DNA of 52,178 nt from positions 1 to 52,178 of the IMG/VR virus record IMGVR_UViG_3300031688_000025; one strand, 5' to 3'. The DNA is from a virus. Shown one piece after another: positions 45,795-52,178 of this stretch. The position numbers and the translations under genes were made by a program. The notes under the pieces are model-generated. The model did not search any database, was not told where the DNA came from, and saw only the letters and a program-made list of their open reading frames with translations. The first letter of the stretch is position 1, and every line of letters begins with the position of its first letter.

Positions 45795-47128
45795 TATACA
45801 ATACCTATTGTTGTGCCTGACCAGTGTGCTGTTCCAGTCCTAGATTGGTTAGTAGAGCCAGTCCCATTGTCTGCAAACATTTGGATTGATACTTTAAACC
45901 TAATAGCAGAAGTAGTACTAGGAGCACTTCCTACAACAGGAATAGTTGTCCAAGAGTTACCACCAGCAGAGGTTTTATTTCTCATTGTTTGTATTGTGCT
46001 ATAAGCTCCGGGAGACCCGCTAGTTAATACAGCATAGTCTAGTTTAACATAAGCAGTGTCTGTAGCAAACGCAGCATCAAACGCCATGTTGATATGAGGT
46101 ATATGAGCTTTGTTATCAGTGGATGCAGGGCAATCTACTTCAATAAGAAGTACATACCCAGAAGAGGTAGGCCCAAAAGTTTTACTACCACTACCCTGAA
46201 AAGCTGAAACACTGTTAAGAGTTCCGTTCATGTTACCTACGGTCAGGTTCTTGATGAAGGCAGCTTCCATTGTCACAAGGCCATTCGTGATGTCGAACAC
46301 TGTCGCGCCCGTTTCTCCTGCAACTGCCCCTTCGACAATAAGGAACTTATCTGCGGTAATCTTAAAGGTTCCGGTAGAACCGTTATTGTTCTGTTCAAAA
46401 CCAGTGATGTAGCCGTTGGCATCTAAAGAAACGCCATACTTGGCTTCGAGTATTCCATCGGCCAGAACCCTAGCAGTAGTCTCTGTGGTGACTGAGGTTG
46501 CCACCACACCAACTGCTGCTGATACTGTAGATACACTGGTTGCCAAAGCATTGTCTGCATTCACAGAAATGCTGTAGTTGTTGGCAATGTTGCCATTTGC
46601 CGTAGCGACAGCGGCAGTCAAAGAGGTAATAAGAGTGGCACTCGCAGTGTCAGCATCTGATCTAGCCGTGGCTTCAGTGGAAATCGCGGATGTGTTGTCA
46701 CCGACAGTTGCTGTGAGCGTTGTGACATTGGATGCCACTGCGGCAGTAGCAGTTGCAGCAGCCGAAGCCTCAGTCACAACCGAGGCAGCCACAGTATCTA
46801 CATTCGCTTGTACAGCTTGCCGTGCAGTTGCTTCGGCAGTTATTGCGTCAGCCCTAGCAGTTGCTTCGGTTACAACAGAGGCAGCGTTAGTTGCAACATT
46901 TGCTTGCACAGTGGTAATCAAAGACGCATTAGCTGCAGTAGCCGAAGCAGTAGCAGTAGCAAGTGATGTCACAGAGCCGCTTACATTTCCTACAGTAGAA
47001 GTAAGATCTACTATAGACTGCTCTAAAGTAACAGCACCAGACTCTAAAGGATAAACTCTAGAGGCCGTGATGTTAACTGTATTGAGTTCTCTTTGAATAG
47101 CTTTAGCATCATACTTTACTGGTAACAT
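45794..47128 (-). CDS. Tail fibre/tip protein with lambda gpJ-like C-terminal module (DUF1983)
   Basis: 444 residues. Residues about 45-225 are Ala/Thr/Val-rich heptad-like repeats (ASVVTEATARADAITAEATA). Then LEAKYGVSLDANGYITGFEQ and TFKITADKFLIVEG match the DUF1983 part of host-specificity protein J. The C-terminus is a beta-rich tip with SGYVLLIEVDCPAS. Probably forms a trimeric fibre for host recognition; the chaperone-like gene follows. Confidence 0.7.
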   Translation of the reverse strand: MLPVKYDAKAIQRELNTVNITASRVYPLESGAVTLEQSIVDLTSTVGNVSGSVTSLATATASATAANASLITTVQANVATNAASVVTEATARADAITAEATARQAVQANVDTVAASVVTEASAAATATAAVASNVTTLTATVGDNTSAISTEATARSDADTASATLITSLTAAVATANGNIANNYSISVNADNALATSVSTVSAAVGVVATSVTTETTARVLADGILEAKYGVSLDANGYITGFEQNNNGSTGTFKITADKFLIVEGAVAGETGATVFDITNGLVTMEAAFIKNLTVGNMNGTLNSVSAFQGSGSKTFGPTSSGYVLLIEVDCPASTDNKAHIPHINMAFDAAFATDTAYVKLDYAVLTSGSPGAYSTIQTMRNKTSAGGNSWTTIPVVGSAPSTTSAIRFKVSIQMFADNGTGSTNQSRTGTAHWSGTTIGIV

Positions 47129-48894
47129 TATCTAGACCCCCTCACTTTCCCTTTAACTACTATGTTAGAGATCTCCCAAGTATCCGTTGGATCATTAGAA
47201 GATATCCTAAGGAACAAGTAACGACCAGAAGTTCTTAAGTCATGCCCCTTGTAGTCATCAGTTGTATAGAAAGTATCGCTAGGGTTAAAGGTAGGGTCAT
47301 CATCAATCTCCGATGCCCACCCTACCTCAACTTTAGGATTACCTAAGCCAGTCTTACCTACTCTTATACTAGTTAATTCCTTGACTGCGTAAGGGTCTTC
47401 AAGATCATGAGCCTTAGTAGTAGCTACTGTAGAGTGTGCAGAGGAACCTCCATTCTCGTAGAACAAACTACCAGTAGAGTTGGCTGACATAGCATGACGG
47501 AACACTCCAGCTTCTAAGAAGGCTGAGGAGTTCTCAGTTCTTTTGCTAAAGGTATTGTTAGAATAGTTATAAGTTATCTCAGTGGTTGGTATTGTATTCT
47601 TAAAAGGAATAGACCACACAACCTCATTGTTCTCTTTGTTGTGATAAGCACAGACTTGCTCGTACTCACCTTCTGCAATATTCTCAGCAATGTACTTGTT
47701 GATACCTTCAAGATCCCCTAGTCTTTCAACAGAGTTACCGTCTGTCATAAACAAACCTCTTTTAGAAAGACCGTAGTTAACTCTATCTACAGACACAACT
47801 GCCTTAGCAGATACAGCACCTACGCCAGAAGCCATAGCAGTCTCGTACCCGAAGTAGAAAGGAGCACCTATGTAGTTTAAGATAAACATCTCACTCTCAG
47901 TGTAGATAGCTTTAGCTTCCCCTAAGGGTACAATGCATCTAAGTTGAGTTGATGCTTCTCGTAAGGTAAGACTACCAGCAGAGTTAGTAGCAGACGCAAC
48001 CCAAGTATCGGGGTCATCTTCCGAGCACCATGCTACATCATAAGGATGATCAGTTGCTGCCTTATCATAGTTTATTGCTAGTAGGTGTGGGCCTGACTTG
48101 TCTACTGCACTCACTCTAGTAAAAGGGCAGTCTGGCATAGTAGCCGTAGCTGTTAGACCAGTACCTGATCCTGATGTACTTGCTTGAGTCAGTGAGGTAG
48201 TAGCTGAAAAGCCAGATCCAAAGTTTGTAACCTTGAGCCTTGCAACAGCACCACCATTAACAGCAGTAACAGTTGCTGTCAACCCAGAACCAGAGCCACC
48301 AGAAAAAGTTAAGGTATCGTTAACAGCGTGGTTGATTCCACCTGCAGTAATGTTAACTCCAGATATTTTATTAACCTGTAACTCTGCAAAGGTTTCATTA
48401 CTTTTCTTAATCTTAAGTGGGCCTACACCATCTGCAGCAAATACCCAAGTTCCGAAGTTAGTGAATGACCAAGAGGCTGCTGCGATAACACCATCATCCC
48501 ACGCTGAAGCTCCAACATCCCAAATAGAATTACCAGAGTCCCAAGAGCTTGCACCTGATGTATTAATAAGATTAAACCCAGAGCCTACTACCACTGCGGC
48601 TGCAGTAGGAGAGTCTTGTCTCCACCTGTAGATGTTAGACAAAGAACCAGCGTACACAACCTTAGTATCAAACTCTTCAGTAGCTACAAGGCCACGTATG
48701 GGTTCTGATGTTAAAGCTGAAAGCAAAGACTTACCCGGCTTTCTTCTGATTCCTGTTTCTGTAAACTGTATGCCATCGACTTCTGCCCAGAAGGGAATAC
48801 TTTTATCAAATTTATTTGTTTGCCACCCCGATGTAATTAGAGGTGTTAAATCAGCCGGGAAAAAAGCTCTCGGACTTCTCGGTGAAGTTGGCAT
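47128..48894 (-). CDS. Tail nozzle/hub protein
   Basis: 588 residues, beta-rich. The start MPTSPRSPRAFFPADLTPLI and segments such as NYGLSKRGLFMTDGNSVERL and TYNYSNNTFSKRTE resemble the large tail hub proteins of podoviruses (P22 gp10 / T7 gp12 role), which form the lower tail tube. A Gly/Ser/Thr-rich region with SGGSGSGLTATVTAVNGGAV around residues 195-250 looks like an inserted beta domain. Assigned by pattern and context. Confidence 0.55.
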   Translation of the reverse strand: MPTSPRSPRAFFPADLTPLITSGWQTNKFDKSIPFWAEVDGIQFTETGIRRKPGKSLLSALTSEPIRGLVATEEFDTKVVYAGSLSNIYRWRQDSPTAAAVVVGSGFNLINTSGASSWDSGNSIWDVGASAWDDGVIAAASWSFTNFGTWVFAADGVGPLKIKKSNETFAELQVNKISGVNITAGGINHAVNDTLTFSGGSGSGLTATVTAVNGGAVARLKVTNFGSGFSATTSLTQASTSGSGTGLTATATMPDCPFTRVSAVDKSGPHLLAINYDKAATDHPYDVAWCSEDDPDTWVASATNSAGSLTLREASTQLRCIVPLGEAKAIYTESEMFILNYIGAPFYFGYETAMASGVGAVSAKAVVSVDRVNYGLSKRGLFMTDGNSVERLGDLEGINKYIAENIAEGEYEQVCAYHNKENNEVVWSIPFKNTIPTTEITYNYSNNTFSKRTENSSAFLEAGVFRHAMSANSTGSLFYENGGSSAHSTVATTKAHDLEDPYAVKELTSIRVGKTGLGNPKVEVGWASEIDDDPTFNPSDTFYTTDDYKGHDLRTSGRYLFLRISSNDPTDTWEISNIVVKGKVRGSR

Positions 48895-48907: not shown

Positions 48908-49813
48908 TTATGCTGTACGTTTCCACATGCTAATCACAACGTAAGGTGACACTGTGGCTAAAGTTACACTAGTTGTTCTATCTGCAGACGCATGTGCTAG
49001 AGATTCTAAATTCTCATTGTTTTCTTCGAGACCTGAACCTGTAATCAACCTTCCACTTGTAGTAGGCTCTGCAAGTTTACCACTAGATTGGACAGCACCC
49101 CATCCATCTCTCGGGGTAGTTATACTTGCTGCGGCTGACTTAGCTCCACCTGTTTCTTCAAGAGTATCAAAGTCTGTATCAGCACCATCAATACCAACTA
49201 GCATCTTACCAGTACCAAAAGCTACCCATGTCCCACCAAATAGGGTACTAGGGTTTGCAGCTAACACTGATAAGTAAATAGAGCCTACAGGATAAACTTT
49301 AAGTAACCCTTGGCTTTCTAGAACCGCTGCAGTAGTAACATCTGCTGAACCATTAAAGCTTACAGAACCAGTTACATCGCCAGTCAAAGAAATAGTCCTT
49401 GGTGCACCTATGACTCCACTCTCTATAAGAACAGGGTTCATTAAGATCCAAGAAGACAAAGTAGCACTCCACATTAGATCTAAGTAATGGTTAACTCCAG
49501 CTATGTTACCAGCTACTAACGCTGCATTGCTTACGGTAACTATAGGGTTAGCTCCAGAACTGTCTACGTTTAAAGTACAAGCACCAGTGTTAACACCAGA
49601 TGCTTTAATTGTTATACGTACACCTGCCGCTTTAACTACGTTGTAGGAAAAGTCAGCAGTTAGTACATCAACTGTACCTGCTGCTGCCGCAAAGTCTAAA
49701 CTAGATCTTAGGGCTGCGTTACTTTCATTTTTAGCTGCTGCAAAGTTATCTCTTACAGACTCAGTTGTCGGTGATCCTGCAACTGGCTTTGTACTATCAA
49801 TTCCACTAGCCAT
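48908..49813 (-). CDS. Tail fibre protein with collar-type C-terminus
   Basis: 301 residues. The C-terminal half YPVGSIYLSVLAANPSTLFG, GTWVAFGTGKMLVGID and the final SPYVVISMWKRTA are the standard tail-fibre tip/baseplate collar module. The N-terminus MASGIDSTKPVAGSPTTESV with VRDNF is a common attachment segment. The middle contains ISLTGDVTGSVSFNGSADVT, another fibre repeat motif. Likely a minor fibre for host binding. Confidence 0.75.
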   Translation of the reverse strand: MASGIDSTKPVAGSPTTESVRDNFAAAKNESNAALRSSLDFAAAAGTVDVLTADFSYNVVKAAGVRITIKASGVNTGACTLNVDSSGANPIVTVSNAALVAGNIAGVNHYLDLMWSATLSSWILMNPVLIESGVIGAPRTISLTGDVTGSVSFNGSADVTTAAVLESQGLLKVYPVGSIYLSVLAANPSTLFGGTWVAFGTGKMLVGIDGADTDFDTLEETGGAKSAAASITTPRDGWGAVQSSGKLAEPTTSGRLITGSGLEENNENLESLAHASADRTTSVTLATVSPYVVISMWKRTA

Positions 49814-49959
49814 TATTTGTTATCCTTATAATTCTTAGATAAAGGAGTGCCGGTAATTTTAGTCTTTGAAGTCTTCTTACCACCGGGTTTTCCTGAGACT
49901 GCTGCATTTCTTGCCATACGCTTAGTCTTTTTAAAAACAGTACTTTTAGTATCTTTCAT
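49813..49959 (-). CDS. Very small basic protein with TPLSK motif
   Basis: 48 residues: MKDTKSTVFKKTKRMARNAA, then SGKPGGKKTSKTKITGTPLS and KNYKDNK. AGGGAG lies upstream and the stop overlaps the next ATG (TAATG). Very Lys-rich. It shares a (G)TPLSK end motif with three other small basic proteins nearby. Possibly DNA- or virion-associated; no family known. Confidence 0.6.
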   Translation of the reverse strand: MKDTKSTVFKKTKRMARNAAVSGKPGGKKTSKTKITGTPLSKNYKDNK

Positions 49960-49961
49960 AA

Positions 49962-50339
49962 TTATTTCTCCCTTTGAACCCCTTTAGTTTTCTCTACAGT
50001 ACGCATAGCGCCAAGACCAAGCATACCCATAAGTACTGTTGTAAGTAAAGAGCTATCAACAGGAGGTACAGTAAACCAGATACCTAAGATAGGGGATAAG
50101 ATAGTAGAATACACAAGAGCAAAACAACATGACCATCCAACAGCAGGTCTCCATCCAGCTACAAACATATTCTTGTGTGCAGCCTCAACCTTGTTAACCT
50201 CCAACTGACCTTTGGCTAGCTCCTGAGCATGCCTCTCAGCCATAGTGCTGATCTCATGGGCTAATTTGTTCTTAACATCTTTGTCTTCAATAAACTTATC
50301 TAGCAGACCCGTTACAGGTGCAATCAATTGTGCTAACAT
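49962..50339 (-). CDS. 3TM holin-family protein
   Basis: 125 residues. A helical N-terminal region is followed by AGWRPAVGWSCCFALVYSTI, then a second hydrophobic stretch (LSPILGIWFTV) and a third (LLTTVLMGMLGLGAM). The GWRPxVGW motif and three short membrane spans are those of the GTA/phage 3TM holin family. It would permeabilise the inner membrane late in infection. Confidence 0.75.
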   Translation of the reverse strand: MLAQLIAPVTGLLDKFIEDKDVKNKLAHEISTMAERHAQELAKGQLEVNKVEAAHKNMFVAGWRPAVGWSCCFALVYSTILSPILGIWFTVPPVDSSLLTTVLMGMLGLGAMRTVEKTKGVQREK

Positions 50340-50348
50340 TCTTATCTC

Positions 50349-50765
50349 CTATTTCTTAGACAAAGGGCCCTTACGGTACTTAGCGGTTTTCTTAGCAATC
50401 TTCTTAGGTTGCTTAGAGAACTGTTTGCCTTTCTTAGTGTCGTCCCTTTTCTTTTTACTAGTAGCAGCATACTCTTTAGATGACAAAGCACCTCTAGCTT
50501 TCTTAGGTAAGTATCTTTCACCAGTAGCCTTAGAGCCCTGTGTACTATTCTTACCAGACTTAGTACCCCACTTTTCTTTAGTCCATTTACTCATGGACTT
50601 CTGAGCTTTAGTCTTTGCTCCGTTATACTTACCACCCGCTTTACGATATTCTTTACCAGCTATCTGTGCCTTACGGGCACTCCACTGTCCGGGACTACCG
50701 CCCTTGCTTCCAGCTTTTACCCTAGCTACAATTCTTTTCCATAGCTTTTCGTTTGACCTAGCCAT
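50349..50765 (-). CDS. Small basic DUF5872-like protein
   Basis: 138 residues, strongly basic. MARSNEKLWKRIVARVKAGS, GGSPGQWSARKAQIAGKEYR, KWTKEKWGTKSGK, and ATGERYLPKKARGALSSKEY are familiar conserved blocks of a DUF5872-type family (name from memory) found in phages and large viruses. Function unknown; likely a nucleic-acid or virion-associated protein. It ends with KGPLSKK, the motif shared with neighbours. Confidence 0.65.
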   Translation of the reverse strand: MARSNEKLWKRIVARVKAGSKGGSPGQWSARKAQIAGKEYRKAGGKYNGAKTKAQKSMSKWTKEKWGTKSGKNSTQGSKATGERYLPKKARGALSSKEYAATSKKKRDDTKKGKQFSKQPKKIAKKTAKYRKGPLSKK

Positions 50766-50767
50766 AG

Positions 50768-50968
50768 TTATTTAGCCTTTTTCTTTTTACCCTTACCGTA
50801 GCTCATAGCTTTCTCCTTTGCTTTATTGGATAGTTCTTCAAAATGAAAAAGTTTCGCAGACAAAGGGCCATGAGCGGCACCAGAGTGAACTTCACCATTT
50901 GGCATTTTATGAGTACCGCCTTTATGGGGAGTACCTTCTTTTGTATAATGCATTACACCTTTAGCCAT
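50768..50968 (-). CDS. Small basic phage protein with HYTKEG motif
   Basis: 66 residues from the ATG at 50968, which overlaps the previous stop (TAATG) and has AAGGTG at proper distance; an ATG two codons earlier is too close to it. HYTKEGTPHKGGTHKMPNGE, VHSGAAHGPLSAKLFHFEEL and a Lys-rich tail. A widely seen small phage protein type of unknown role. Carries GPLS. Confidence 0.65.
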   Translation of the reverse strand: MAKGVMHYTKEGTPHKGGTHKMPNGEVHSGAAHGPLSAKLFHFEELSNKAKEKAMSYGKGKKKKAK

Positions 50969-51255
50969 TACCATTTCACCTTATTAGCCCAGTAAGCTGC
51001 AGACAAAGGGCCTTTAGCAATGTTCTTTGCATGCCTAGCCTTAAAGCTTTTACGCTTTGCTTTCATCTTAGATGACTCACCAGACTTAGGGGAGCCTGCT
51101 GTGCTAGCTCCCTGTTCTCCAAAACGGATTGTTTTGATAGTATCTCCTGACTTAGCAACAACAACGTGGCTTTTAGTAGGGTGACTAGGGGTTCTCTTTG
51201 GTTTATTAAATCCACTAACGCCTGCTCTTTTTAATCTTGGATCTTTAAGAGGCAT
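50968..51255 (-). CDS. Small basic phage protein (KVKW family)
   Basis: 95 residues. KSHVVVAKSGDTIKTIRFGE, then SKMKAKRKSFKARHAKNIAK and the end SAAYWANKVKW are conserved in small basic proteins of many marine phages. Possibly binds DNA or capsid. It carries GPLS just before the SAAYWANKVKW end. Confidence 0.65.
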   Translation of the reverse strand: MPLKDPRLKRAGVSGFNKPKRTPSHPTKSHVVVAKSGDTIKTIRFGEQGASTAGSPKSGESSKMKAKRKSFKARHAKNIAKGPLSAAYWANKVKW

Positions 51256-51256
51256 G

Positions 51257-51424
51257 TTATTTATCCTTTTTAATCAAGCTCTGGATAGTGTCTGATTCAA
51301 ATATCCTTAAAGACATCCAGATAATAGTTAGAAGAGAAGCTATAGGTGGTAGCCAAGCAGCTAATGTAAGGACTGCTGTTGAAGCAGCGGCTACATCAAT
51401 AACTTCTTTTGTAGATTCTTCCAT
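51257..51424 (-). CDS. Class II holin-like protein (T7 gp17.5 type)
   Basis: 55 residues from the ATG at 51424 (AAGGAT upstream); a longer frame starts inside the previous gene. MEESTKEVIDVAAASTAVLT, LAAWLPPIASLLTIIWMSLR and IFESDTIQSLIKKDK: two membrane spans around a Pro turn, acidic N-terminus, basic end. This fits small T7-type holins. Together with the 3TM protein it gives two holin candidates. Confidence 0.7.
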   Translation of the reverse strand: MEESTKEVIDVAAASTAVLTLAAWLPPIASLLTIIWMSLRIFESDTIQSLIKKDK

Positions 51425-51434
51425 AAAAATATCC

Positions 51435-51881
51435 TTATAATATGTACAAGTACACAACAAGTGCGACTGAGAGTAGTAATAAAGACCCTAAGGTTGTTTT
51501 AATAAGCTCTGACAACTCACGCTGTTTCTTTAGCTTAGATAACCTAGTCTTCTCTATTCTATGTTTATGTTCCATTAAGGACTTATGTTGTATAGCTAAC
51601 ATATCTCTCCATACTTCCCTTGGTGTTACTTTCTTTAATTCTTTTTCTTTGGCACGTATATCAGCCTTAGCCCATGCTAACTCAAGAGCTTCCTCCTGAG
51701 TCAACACATGATCACCTGTCTTAGTAGCTTGCTCAATAGTCTCAACTGCTGCTTTACTTTCAGTCAGTGAAGAGAAAACCCCAGCAAGCCCTGTTAGGTT
51801 AGCACCTGATTCCTTAACGGTTTTAATGCCATCGTTAAGAGTCTTAAGGATACCTACGACTGCTGAGATTTCTGCAATCAT
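51435..51881 (-). CDS. Coiled-coil protein with C-terminal membrane anchor
   Basis: 148 residues. Helical charged body (KADIRAKEKELKKVTPREVW, then MEHKHRIEKTRLSKLKKQRE) and one C-terminal membrane span (LGSLLLLSVALVVYLYIL). It lies before the holin-like gene, so a lysis role (such as an antiholin or spanin-like protein) is possible, but spanins usually have an N-terminal anchor. Family not recognised. Confidence 0.55.
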   Translation of the reverse strand: MIAEISAVVGILKTLNDGIKTVKESGANLTGLAGVFSSLTESKAAVETIEQATKTGDHVLTQEEALELAWAKADIRAKEKELKKVTPREVWRDMLAIQHKSLMEHKHRIEKTRLSKLKKQRELSELIKTTLGSLLLLSVALVVYLYIL

Positions 51882-51882
51882 A

Positions 51883-52178
51883 TTAGCTGCCTAAAGTTGG
51901 GCGTGTGTCAGGAAAGTCTGAGGTAGACGGCCATTGACGCAATGCAGTCCTGTACAGCAAGATGTTGTCGCGGTTAGGCCAGTCTGGGGTTTGTGCTGCT
52001 GTGTCTGAAGATGACAGTTCGCCATCACGCCACATACGCCCAGCTTCTGCCGCTGTTGGCTCTACAGGTGTAGGTGCTACCCAAAGCTCATAGTGGTCAA
52101 AGTTAGCTGCAACAAACTCAGCGTCAGCAGTGATGGTATTTGTGATGTTACCGTCAGCATCTTTAATATTATATTTCA
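51883..52178 (-). CDS. Tail assembly chaperone-like protein, first base outside window
   Basis: 98 residues if the missing base is A, giving ATG at 52179: (M)KYNIKDADGNITNTITADAE, then EFVAANFDHYELW and the end LLYRTALRQWPSTSDFPDTR. The KYxIKDADGxxxNTI start and WPSTxDFPDTRP end are typical of tail fibre assembly chaperone-like proteins. It is close to 208-408. The only uncertainty is the start, because the window ends inside the initiation codon. Confidence 0.65.
   Translation of the reverse strand, partial: KYNIKDADGNITNTITADAEFVAANFDHYELWVAPTPVEPTAAEAGRMWRDGELSSSDTAAQTPDWPNRDNILLYRTALRQWPSTSDFPDTRPTLGS

Follow-up and report, generated by a model that had tools for sequence, protein, structure and literature searches.

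Why should four small Lys-rich proteins of one phage, otherwise unlike each other, carry the same short peptide, GPLS or a close variant of it? We followed this question in an entire IMG/VR virus record of 52,178 bases, hereafter called the window. It encodes a T7-like RNA polymerase, a portal, a scaffold, a capsid and a terminase, as well as very large proteins, one of which matches virion structural profiles. The closest cultured relative that we found is Roseobacter phage CRP-7, with 53% identity in the capsid and 55% in the terminase; its small basic proteins have no terminal tag. The host can only be inferred from this roseophage-like genome and its nearest cultured relative, and the group is marine with, probably, roseobacters as hosts. 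The phages with the tagged cluster form one marine lineage of podophage-like type. Both record G003 and locus L163 extend from the capsid side to the tagged genes, which makes it probable that the window ends (1-1500 and 51900-52178) are neighbours in the genome. If they are, some tail-fibre sequence between them is probably missing from the window.

The four ORFs and their motifs are all present where an earlier note on this DNA had placed them, with one correction, and all features of the cluster named here lie on the minus strand. Family 1 (50968..51255) is a small basic protein of 95 aa with a charge of +19, in which GPLS forms residues 82-85 (codons at 51001..51012) in the context AKGPLSAAYW. 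Family 2 is a small basic His-rich protein of 68 aa, charge +9, with GPLS at residues 36-39 (codons at 50858..50869; AHGPLSAKLF). Its ORF spans 50768..50974, and the end at 50968 given earlier is an internal start. Family 3 (50349..50765), very basic with 138 aa and a charge of +37, bears an appended tail KGPLSKK (codons at 50358..50369), so that YRKGPLSKK directly precedes the stop. Family 4 (49813..49959; 48 aa, charge +13) has the variant TPLS at residues 38-41, encoded by ACT CCT TTA TCT at 49837..49848 in the context TGTPLSKNYK. Within the cluster lies a holin (49962..50339; GTA_holin_3TM, E = 8.9e-16), a membrane protein without the tag. A 55-aa one-TM protein at the upstream edge (51257..51424) and a 148-aa TM protein further upstream (51435..51881) are likewise untagged.

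Profile searches placed family 1 over its full length in phrog_7595 (E = 1.1e-42) and family 3 in phrog_14910 (E = 2.6e-32) and phrog_17747 (E = 1.1e-13). Family 3 scored 15.6 bits against Pfam DUF5872, below the gathering cut-off of 27.5, and the NCBIfam search gave no match. A comparison of families 1 and 3 with solved structures gave nothing significant; the hits were ribosomal proteins with E of 0.1 or worse. Family 1 is apparently a shortened version of a broader phage domain, VxVxxGDxxKxxxFGD..F.ARH...KT.xxYW (window 50968-51255; L439:1399-1773; L440:1423-1680), which occurs in proteins of Vibrio phage GR7B and CRP-902 annotated Peptidase_S78_2 and HVA1.

We asked how unusual the shared motif is within the window. 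The 11-mer GACAAAGGGCC occurs three times on the two strands of the 52,178-base record, at 50359, 50859 and 51002, where shuffles predict 0.02 copies, and all three copies lie in one codon phase, GGC CCT TTG TCT. Positions and frame agree exactly with the earlier note, and the 11-mer is absent from the rest of the record on either strand, rather than being common across the genome. GPLS was common to at least three of the four proteins in 0 of 20,000 shuffles, and in 75 of 20,000 (0.4%) three proteins had some 4-mer in common that contained no more than one K/R. The window alone is no more than fairly strong evidence for a shared motif, and the relatives described below make the evidence strong. 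The three window copies are more alike in codons than usage predicts (about 2e-4, by hand calculation), for which short-range copying could be the source. We also considered whether shared 4-mers are a general trait of small basic proteins, and rejected this: in 223 loci, GPLS was shared only in those of the window's lineage, and the other shared 4-mers were few (AKGK, RDPR, NKPK), with about 3 such loci expected from shuffles.

Alignment with homologues showed how each family came to carry the motif. At the family 1 site, 204 homologues include 151 with GKMS, 16 with GKLS, 5 with GKCS, 3 with GPMS and 10 with GPLS, and all 10 GPLS cases belong to the window's lineage. Since an old conserved site holds the motif, GPLS in family 1 is a substitution and not an insertion. 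Beyond this tally, two later finds outside the lineage (L411 and L320) have GPLS in family 1, with no further tagged neighbour in L411, and GPMS occurs outside the lineage in L010, L031 and L157. In family 2, the lineage has HGPLS or HSPLS where homologues mostly have H[GT][AKST][TSN]S, and in family 4 the window has TGTPLSK where homologues have TG[MT]PVKRK. Family 3 is the clearest case of tag gain among the four: about 110 homologues stop at KKTARYR or a few residues on without the motif, and the KGPLSK(K) tail is found in the lineage only. Thus GPLS is a tail addition in family 3 and an in-place substitution in families 1, 2 and 4. The statement in the earlier note that relatives of two families lack GPLS holds for all four, with the rare family 1 exceptions, and homologues in unrelated phages, which might all have had GPLS for reasons of their own, generally lack it.

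Inspecting the same cluster in relatives revealed five more families, each with the motif at the protein end, which brings the tag to about nine unrelated small families of one lineage under the working consensus [KRTH][GAST]PL[SQAGK]. Family 5 ends in KLKGPLQAK, KLKGPLKK or KRKAPLSQGY, family 8 in KGKGPLSK, and family 9 in STKGPLSKQES. The two family 6 proteins end in KKITGPLGNPGK (L084) and DSMKGPLQG (L451), tails that are unlike each other except for GPL, and the family 7 ends RQAPLSNYK and RTPLSSNYR also differ otherwise. In one type of family 1 (L086 and its kin), an N-terminal extension MQKRKGPLAK carries the tag and the ancestral GKMS is kept. The tag has therefore arisen by three routes: substitution in families 1, 2 and 4, growth of a C-terminal tail in family 3 and, in one case, extension of the N-terminus.

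Similar ends were seen in some other proteins. A 63-64-aa TM protein ends in TVPLNKK, VMPIASK or TMPLSSK (L444:4197-4388, L446:568-762, L447:383-577) in lineage members that lack small basic proteins, and a 159-aa TM protein of L086 kin ends in LSNPLGK; PL near the C-terminus of TM proteins is possibly intrinsic to these families. Outside the lineage (L030, in a 53-aa ORF; L045; L138), other small families have ends in ARGPLA or starts with MSTRIGPLSR or AGNTRVGPLAR.

How complete is the tagging? Among Lys/Arg-rich non-membrane small proteins of the cluster, 26/26 unique proteins of the lineage are tagged, compared with 5/504 in other phages that have families 1-3. Because the lineage set had been assembled partly by following the tag, we ran a tag-blind test, in which relatives were retrieved through the neighbouring 588-aa virion structural (tail) protein (47128..48894 on the minus strand of the window). 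This yielded five new loci in which 15/15 small soluble cluster proteins are tagged, one of them without net positive charge, and no untagged small soluble cluster protein was found in the tag-blind loci. In four further loci (L444-L447), the cluster holds membrane proteins only. As several of the tag-blind loci are near-copies of known ones and many loci are close relatives, independent observations are fewer than these counts. The holin and the other TM proteins of the cluster carry no tag, and neither do the small basic proteins found in other parts of the window and in the 54-kb relative G007. The tag is restricted to this lineage and this cluster.

In AlphaFold models, which were used only for loop and tail placement because of their modest confidence (mean pLDDT 65 and 69), the motif of family 1 lies in a loop between helices 62-80 and 86-92, and that of family 3 in a C-terminal stretch with pLDDT < 50, as in a disordered tail. 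Both placements would suit a motif that is read by a partner.

These results make it very likely that GPLS is a shared peptide motif under selection. Selection at the peptide level would act on nearly all small soluble, mostly Lys-rich proteins of the cluster. Since unrelated proteins carry the tag while their counterparts in other phages do without it, it looks like a shared address label, and the motif probably recruits its carriers to a common partner. We infer that this partner is constant because fast-turnover unrelated proteins of one late cluster each acquire the same 4-6 residues; a single partner would recognise the tag in an exposed loop or disordered tail, whatever the carrier. The tagged cluster sits among virion genes; in G003, family 1 is about 8.5 kb from the capsid gene and on the same strand. 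Family 1 also matches phrog_220 ('minor head protein and DNA pilot') weakly (E = 1.3e-4). Late expression among virion genes, the Lys-rich character and this weak match favour the head, and we give about even odds to the partner being a component of the assembling head. The tag would then bind scaffold, capsid or portal, and basic, fast-changing proteins would be loaded into the assembling head, packaged with the DNA and carried into the next host, like the T-even internal proteins. As an overall reading, we hold it as likely as not that a lineage-specific short linear motif lets a changing set of small late proteins dock onto a single partner, with head loading as the most likely purpose. More tentatively, the motif may be a position-tolerant, uncleaved phage cargo address of four residues, gained independently by each entrant to the cluster, that loads a varying set of basic proteins into the particle for delivery to the next host. 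Our literature search found no paper that describes a tag of this kind or says where in the virion these families lie, and it brought up neither virion proteomics nor binding data for any of them.

The strongest competing explanation accepts a real shared tag and places its partner outside the virion, as a host enzyme (chaperone, prolyl isomerase, protease or RNA polymerase, for example) or a late-acting phage enzyme. The same tag evidence (26/26, 15/15 and the codon variation given below) applies to it, and with a holin in the same cluster the proteins could act in the dying cell. However, a place in the late virion/lysis stretch, richness in Lys and rapid exchange of members are better suited to packaged internal proteins, and small basic proteins from other parts of the window and from G007 do not have the tag. 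We therefore regard a non-virion partner as rather unlikely.

Cleavage is much less probable still. A virion-maturation or host protease could have its site in a short, recurring motif with a proline close to protein ends, and the earlier note had raised this possibility. Yet a cut would take off only 1-4 residues in families 3, 5, 6, 7, 8 and 9, split family 2 in two and cost the L086-type family 1 its first few residues, and the head genes that we examined included no recognisable protease. Since in most families a cut would free so little, cleavage at GPLS is highly improbable.

Coincidence, in which helix-capping turns in families 1 and 2 combine with unrelated Lys-rich tails, has some basis in these two families. 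There, the motif replaces the family's own [G]xxS site at or before a helix, with ancestral GK[ML]S in family 1 and G[AK]TS in family 2 at the same places, and a few other phages have GPLS or GPMS in family 1; a purely structural reason for the motif is possible in these two. Coincidence leaves unexplained the KGPLSK that family 3 gained, family 4's TPLS, the ends of families 5-9 and the N-terminal copy in L086-type family 1, and it is contradicted by the 15/15 of the tag-blind test, so that we give it very little credence.

The earlier note had left open a common tag or a DNA repeat that happens to be translated. The 41 tagged proteins use 18 distinct codon sets, with synonymous forms in relatives such as GGC CCT TTG TCT, GGT CCA CTA AGT and GGG CCC CTG TCT, and codon-set similarity between families is 0.35 within genomes versus 0.29 between genomes (P = 0.14). 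As the codons vary while the peptide recurs, across unrelated families and positions, the peptide is what is kept, and the tag is the alternative that stands. Of the uses that the note named for such a tag, capsid binding would be our preferred candidate. A repeat, regulatory or recombination element translated by accident would fit the 11 bases that three genes share and that recur nowhere else in the genome, and the 18 identical bases over the tag in two families of L425, but it is largely refuted by this free codon variation, has no within-genome similarity significantly above the between-genome level and no copy outside genes or in another frame, and is thus most improbable.

Known systems offer partial parallels to the shared peptide tag. 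The T4 capsid-targeting sequence (CTS) is an N-terminal tag that the prohead protease cuts off. The tag here resembles it as one short conserved sequence on otherwise unrelated small proteins. It differs in its place, since only L086-type family 1 has it at the N-terminus and every other family has it inside the protein or at the C-terminus, and as a position-tolerant, apparently uncleaved stretch of 4-6 residues; we do not claim membership in a T4-type CTS system. T-even internal proteins with a CTS are diverse, fast-changing, small, basic and late, and have only the short sequence in common (PMC3012670). As to the removal of the T4 tag, reference 48 of PMC9024508 names proteolytic processing in its title. 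In phage P1, the N-terminal packaging signal of DarB suffices to send a foreign protein into the head (PMC9024508). This too is a terminal segment, but it is a 30-residue signal on one very large protein, versus a tiny motif on many small proteins.

In other marine phage lineages, we noticed that several small basic proteins bear KGG with K/L/M/Y as the next residue (L334:6953-7270; L060, L078; L221-L230), with additions at corresponding ends, before family 1 in L334 and as FNKGGYVACGAS after family 3 in L060 and L078. Some of the families are the same as those with GPLS, but the sequence is another and the excess over chance is only mild (17 loci with at least three carriers versus 7.3 expected by shuffles). 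We therefore did not accept KGG as an equivalent tag, and it stays a lead. No literature on KGG-type short motifs was found. Other marine phage lineages may nevertheless mark these protein families with motifs of their own, for example KGG.

Marine phages encode many small Lys-rich proteins to which no function is assigned. A shared tag means that in this lineage the whole set probably goes to one place or partner, and the tag gives a simple handle for finding that partner. If the place is the head, the tagged proteins would be injected, and their counterparts in uncultured phages would be recognisable by the tag of the lineage. The tag could also find use as a minimal loading signal where phages are made to deliver proteins to bacteria.
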